Below are positions 13,044-14,033 of a stretch of 43,991 bases of DNA, in pieces. This stretch comes from an uncultured Mucispirillum sp. Its GTDB lineage: Bacteria > Chrysiogenota > Deferribacteres > Deferribacterales > Mucispirillaceae. A program made the translations under genes and the position numbers. The stretch is from assembly GCA_944325215.1 (NCBI GenBank), contig CALUZC010000021.1:1-43991 (forward strand), given 5' to 3'. The notes under the pieces were generated by a model that searched no databases, was not told the origin of the DNA, and saw only the letters and a program-made list of their open reading frames with translations. Numbering within the stretch: the stretch's first letter is position 1; every line of letters begins with the position of its first letter.

Positions 13044-13070
13044 AAAAAAACCCTGCCCACTGGGACAGGG
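13044..13070 (-). terminator. Intrinsic terminator
   Basis: On the minus strand CCCTGTCCCAGTGGGCAGGG folds as a GC-rich hairpin followed by seven T residues. It would stop transcription coming from the lipoprotein gene at 13293-13877 and lies immediately before the NYN start. A second hairpin precedes it. Confidence 0.85.
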
Positions 13071-13924: not shown

Positions 13925-13951
13925 ATTCTATCATGGGGGGGGGAATGTCAA
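13925..13951 (-). promoter_or_regulatory. Promoter with poly-C tract in the spacer (candidate phase-variation switch)
   Basis: On the minus strand a perfect -35 TTGACA (13946-13951) and -10 TAGAAT (13925-13930) are separated by 15 bases, nine of which are an uninterrupted C run (plus-strand G9 at 13935-13943). Slipped-strand mispairing would change the spacer. With two more C it would be the optimal 17. This is the layout of known phase-variable promoters such as opc and porA in Neisseria. No other homopolymer of G or C this long was noticed in the window. Confidence 0.7.
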
Positions 13952-13994: not shown

Positions 13995-14033
13995 AAAAAA
14001 GACCCTTCTCACAATTAAGAAAGGGCCTTTTTT
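13995..14033 (-). terminator. Terminator after rpsU (bidirectional)
   Basis: A hairpin of GGCCCTTTCTT and GAGAAGGGTC with a short loop is flanked by T-runs in both directions. It starts four bases after the rpsU stop and ends the tig-to-rpsU block. Confidence 0.85.

Follow-up and report, generated by a model that had tools for sequence, protein, structure and literature searches.

A probable slippage-tuned C-tract promoter of a Mucispirillum lipoprotein gene, one of about a dozen alike in its genome

Introduction

Homopolymer tracts sit in the promoter spacer of the Neisseria genes fetA and porA, and the promoter region of the Vlp genes of Mycoplasma hyorhinis carries poly-A. In the opc promoter of Neisseria meningitidis the length of a poly-C tract sets expression of a surface protein, with 11 C giving low and 12 C giving high expression in one strain, as related in later papers that cite the original study (Sarkari 1994, cited in PMC3447861, PMC6389960). 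The fetA tract is an intergenic poly-C of 10–14 (PMC5953494), the Vlp proteins form a lipoprotein system as cited in PMC11868660, and the poly-G tracts of Campylobacter jejuni have lengths that peak at 9 (53%) and 10 (26%) (PMC6321876).

Here we describe a C9 tract in the promoter of a lipoprotein gene of Mucispirillum. The window, i.e. the whole stretch of 43,991 nucleotides that we analysed, corresponds to contig C21 in a draft genome of 2.55 Mb (Deferribacterota). As in opc, poly-C lies in the promoter region before a surface-protein gene; opc, however, is a single gene with longer tracts, whereas the Mucispirillum promoters have a consensus −35, an extended −10 and a modal C9, and number a dozen in this genome. 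The fetA and porA genes share with our proposal the control of transcription of an outer-membrane protein gene by a homopolymer, but they are isolated loci with longer tracts rather than a repeated promoter type. In the Vlp system, as we propose here, several lipoprotein genes each have their own homopolymer-bearing promoter, which gives rise to combinations of surface proteins; Vlp is nevertheless one clustered gene family with poly-A, in contrast to the dispersed, mostly unrelated genes and poly-C of Mucispirillum. The C. jejuni poly-G/C phasome resembles the Mucispirillum tracts in its peaks at 9 and 10, but lies mostly within reading frames, whereas about a third of the Mucispirillum tracts are inside promoters. 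The mechanism class of opc, fetA and Vlp is thus already known, and our assignment to it, made from sequence, is provisional; the novelty lies in the organism and in the scale, with one recurring type of promoter in front of many, mostly unrelated lipoprotein genes. We found no relevant description of phase variation in Mucispirillum or Deferribacteres in the open-access library that we searched.

Results

We analysed the promoter on the minus strand, where positions 13951–13925 read TTGACA-TT-CCCCCCCCC-ATGA-TAGAAT, a homopolymer of at least eight thus lying between recognisable −35 and −10 boxes. The −35 box TTGACA (13951–13946) is identical at the 67 genus sites found by pattern (see below), and the −10 box TAGAAT (13930–13925) matches TATAAT in five of six positions and is the same in the orthologous promoter L088. 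Between them, the 15-bp spacer is made up of TT (13945–13944), the C9 tract (13943–13935), which is the proposed slippage element and has counterparts at 72 genus sites, and ATGA (13934–13931). This architecture had been pointed out in an earlier note on this DNA and is borne out by the sequence; absent from that description was the TG of an extended −10 (TGA-TAGAAT) at 13933–13932. The extended −10 region, TGATANAAT, is found again at most genus sites.

Downstream, a ribosome-binding site AAGGAG (13889–13884, minus strand) precedes an ATG that lies 74 nt downstream of the first base of the −35 box and opens a minus-strand gene of 194 aa (13877–13293). Its lipobox, VYGC, makes the product a surface or secreted protein, and confirms the lipoprotein target claimed earlier; the protein has no Pfam family match, and two of the ten genus genomes have the gene. 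The gene is monocistronic. Terminator-like hairpins on the minus strand lie on either side, as the earlier note had also stated, one upstream at 14024–14003, between an S21-like gene and the promoter, and one downstream at 13070–13051, ahead of an NYN-like gene. Judging by their translations, the upstream neighbours are S21-like, Lon-like and ClpX-like, and those downstream NYN-, HypA- and HypB-like. In M. schaedleri SI.A35 the orthologue of the lipoprotein (L140, G001:C36, about 1490-1520) carries a frameshift that splits it, apparently located in a run of T whose length is not that of the window copy.

The tract is the sole run of at least eight C in the window, where shuffles predict 0.04. 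The genome as a whole holds 33 such tracts, with lengths of 8 (2 tracts), 9 (22), 10 (6) and 11 (3) and with length 7 nearly absent, whereas chance runs would become steadily rarer with length. Of these 33 tracts, 12 lie 1–6 nt behind TTGACA or TTGATA, against 0.22 expected. In the promoter tracts C is always on the coding strand, and no G run was found 1–6 nt behind these boxes anywhere in the genome. We extended the comparison to 10 genomes of the genus, one per species, mostly metagenome assemblies with consensus tract lengths. A looser pattern occurred at 67 sites in nine of the ten, against 1 for the reversed pattern, and the other Mucispirillum genomes having any such promoter carry 3 to 12 copies each. 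Taken together, the window shuffles, the own-genome excess and the reversed pattern led us to reject chance as the origin of the promoter tract. The idea of a single switch that affects one gene does not hold either, as the promoter is one of at least 12 alike in its own genome.

Altogether we collected 72 genus promoters, each with a recognisable −10 box. When the −35 and extended −10 boxes were fixed and the spacer was left free, 32 of 40 matches contained a pure C8–C9 tract and none an interrupted one; the remaining eight were unrelated, equal to the count of eight for the reversed pattern. The flanks around the tract, TTGACATT and rTGATAwAAT, are conserved too, while the prefixes of the tract vary among sites (TT, AT, AAT, ATT, AAAT). 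The sister genus has two sites, both ahead of lipoproteins. In about 85,000 genomes the strict motif was found in 24 stretches, 19 of them from Mucispirillum and the other five single matches with C6–C8, and TTGACANNCCCCCCC was absent from all 25 genomes of other families in the order; on these counts a wider taxonomic origin was rejected.

Several loci deserve separate mention. At L047 (G000:C6:78313-79143) tandem identical genes for a 186-aa lipoprotein have one C9 promoter apiece, and at L045 (G000:C4:65850-65885) two inverted C9 tracts stand about 20 bp apart without a clear gene nearby. A C9 at L039 (G000:C1:27394) and in two relatives (G001:C65, G007:C8) lies within an imperfect inverted repeat, TTGACAT...ATGTCAA in both relatives and with TTTACAT instead of TTGACAT in the own genome; as none of the three has a clear −10, they are not promoters of the C-tract type.

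We then asked what the promoters serve. Among the 52 sites with a downstream ORF, a set that includes orthologous sites and so does not represent 52 independent events, a rule-based call gave 34 lipoprotein-like products and visual inspection another two, compared with 2 of 38 genes in the window. Most other targets are barrel-like secreted proteins or membrane proteins, several with signal peptides, and a few look cytosolic, e.g. a SUFU-domain protein. In the own genome, lipoproteins are the targets of seven of the 12 promoters. Two own-genome targets (L043, and L056 by reading its translation) are RCC1-repeat lipoproteins, bacterial surface proteins of the beta-propeller type.

Tract length varies. 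Over the 72 sites it ranges from 6 to 11 with a sharp mode at 9, and the spacers from about 12 to 19 bp, with exactly 15 bp at 44 of the 72. The predominance of C9 and of the 15-bp spacer could mean that the pair is a constant element, bound by a regulator or read through DNA shape, that co-regulates a lipoprotein regulon, length changes being rare noise. Retention of C9 across species in several orthologous groups, despite flank divergence of up to 17%, fits such a fixed element, as do the conserved flanks. Hard to reconcile with it are the other tract lengths and spacers of the same promoter type and the pair L101 and L113, which are C9 and C7 yet otherwise identical across about 120 upstream bases and the gene start. 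Near-identical flanks also surround orthologous promoters of C9 and C8 (L069 and L110) and of C10 and C9 (L042 and L120; L040 and L122). Furthermore, a binding site would tolerate interruption, whereas no tract is interrupted, and the modal length is the same in tracts of coding genes. We regard a fixed element as unlikely. At the window locus itself, the two species carrying the gene both show C9, as judged from consensus lengths in one genome per species.

If the spacer were under selection for length, other spacer bases should compensate for the tract. One site indeed has a C8 offset by an extra spacer base; over the 72 sites, however, tract length and non-C spacer length did not correlate (rho −0.05, p 0.69), as expected from tract dynamics and not from a fixed spacer, and selection on the spacer was rejected as the cause of C9. 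A shuffled-variance test was borderline (0.049), partly driven by outliers with uncertain −10 boxes. Since compensation is lacking, the non-promoter tracts of the own genome share the modal length of 9, and C. jejuni tracts peak at 9 and 10, we infer that slipping poly-C comes to rest at 9 and that this length is not something the promoter itself demands. Loss of mismatch repair was rejected as the source of slippage: MutS and MutL are full-length in the own and most genus genomes, so slippage is not raised by a repair defect.

Alternatively, one promoter may have been copied by gene duplication and recruitment, its poly-C staying near 9 through mutational equilibrium with little effect on expression. 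Shared flanks, paralogous genes at some sites (the L047 tandem pair and the L040 pair) and the equal mode of tracts elsewhere agree with such an inherited by-product. Nevertheless, the targets mostly look mutually unrelated, the differing prefixes around the same tract suggest repeated origin or retention of the tract, both sister-genus sites are again ahead of lipoproteins, and substitutions would break a neutral pure tract; we consider this origin quite improbable. An RNA element in the transcript is unlikely, because the tract is upstream of the predicted start, and a quadruplex or i-motif was rejected, as one C tract alone cannot make either intramolecularly.

To predict promoter output we compared the spacers of consensus promoters of the genus that have no C tract. 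Among at least 99 distinct matches listed, spacers of 15, 16 and 17 bp were found at 17, 19 and 14 sites, with a background of about 2–9 per length among the matches listed. Because these spacers concentrate at 15–17 bp, the C9 promoter is probably active, perhaps short of its maximum, and weak expression would more likely come from the loss of one or two C. We predict that C9–C11 (15–17 bp) are active and that C8 or less and C12 or more are weak, C10 being perhaps the strongest. The earlier note had reasoned that a 17-bp spacer needs eleven C; the arithmetic is right, but 17 bp is no clear optimum for promoters of this genus, and the eleven-C value presupposes the E. coli spacer. The OFF state that it implied for 15 bp is doubtful, given the 15–17 bp of ordinary genus promoters and the extended −10 here.

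Taken as a whole, the 33 tracts, 22 of length 9 and some leaving genes out of frame, amount to a simple-sequence-repeat phasome of the Campylobacter type. Non-promoter tracts lie mostly inside genes, for a glycosyltransferase, EptA-like, sulfatase-fold transferases, a formyltransferase, FdtA-like, radical SAM, porin-like and a DNA methylase, which are classic phase-variable classes; the coding tracts of C. jejuni are in the same classes. Coding poly-G/C of 9–11, in or out of frame, is seen at L059, L051, L049, L050, L046, L053, L054, L057, L062 and L063, in genes for surface modification and other functions that form a phasome independent of the promoters. A type III-like DNA methyltransferase (PF01555; L055, G000:C19:21515-21525) has an internal G11 and is out of frame in the own genome, whereas its orthologues in G001 and G008 (L143, L146) have G9 and are in frame; the G001 orthologue is 94% identical to the own-genome copy. 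L055 is a candidate for a switching methylome.

Discussion

The above results make it probable that the strength of this promoter is tuned by slipped-strand changes of its C tract, and that it is one of about a dozen like copies mainly serving lipoproteins. The promoter would be of the sigma-70 type, with the C tract between −35 and −10 as the tuning element of transcriptional phase variation. Slippage during replication would add or remove C, moving the boxes closer together or further apart and rotating them, which would alter RNA polymerase binding stepwise; cells within one population would then make differing sets of lipoproteins. Such slippage would have to be frequent within populations, and to act at the window locus and change transcription there. 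Weighing against this reading are the C9 shared by both species at the window locus, the C9 retained in several diverged orthologous groups, the prevalence of the 15-bp spacer, the one C8 offset by an extra base and the intact MutS and MutL. The phase-variable promoter proposed in the earlier note stands as regards a slippage-prone tract, its promoter position, the lipoprotein target and the monocistronic layout, and the genus-wide evidence supports length variation as a design; what changes is its scale.

A broader possibility, for which we see about even chances, is a dispersed stochastic lipoprotein regulon, in which one C-tract promoter type precedes a dozen mostly unrelated, chiefly surface-protein genes, beside coding-tract switches that include the methyltransferase. 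If so, independent slippage would yield thousands of surface combinations. Mucispirillum schaedleri belongs to the core microbiota of the mouse gut, and in mouse models it has been associated with inflammation (PMC5285517). A phasome with one third of its tracts in promoters, mainly of lipoproteins, would, if real, explain surface variation under host immunity, and the expression state would vary between mice and between cultures. With one promoter type governing many genes, Mucispirillum would offer a testable system.
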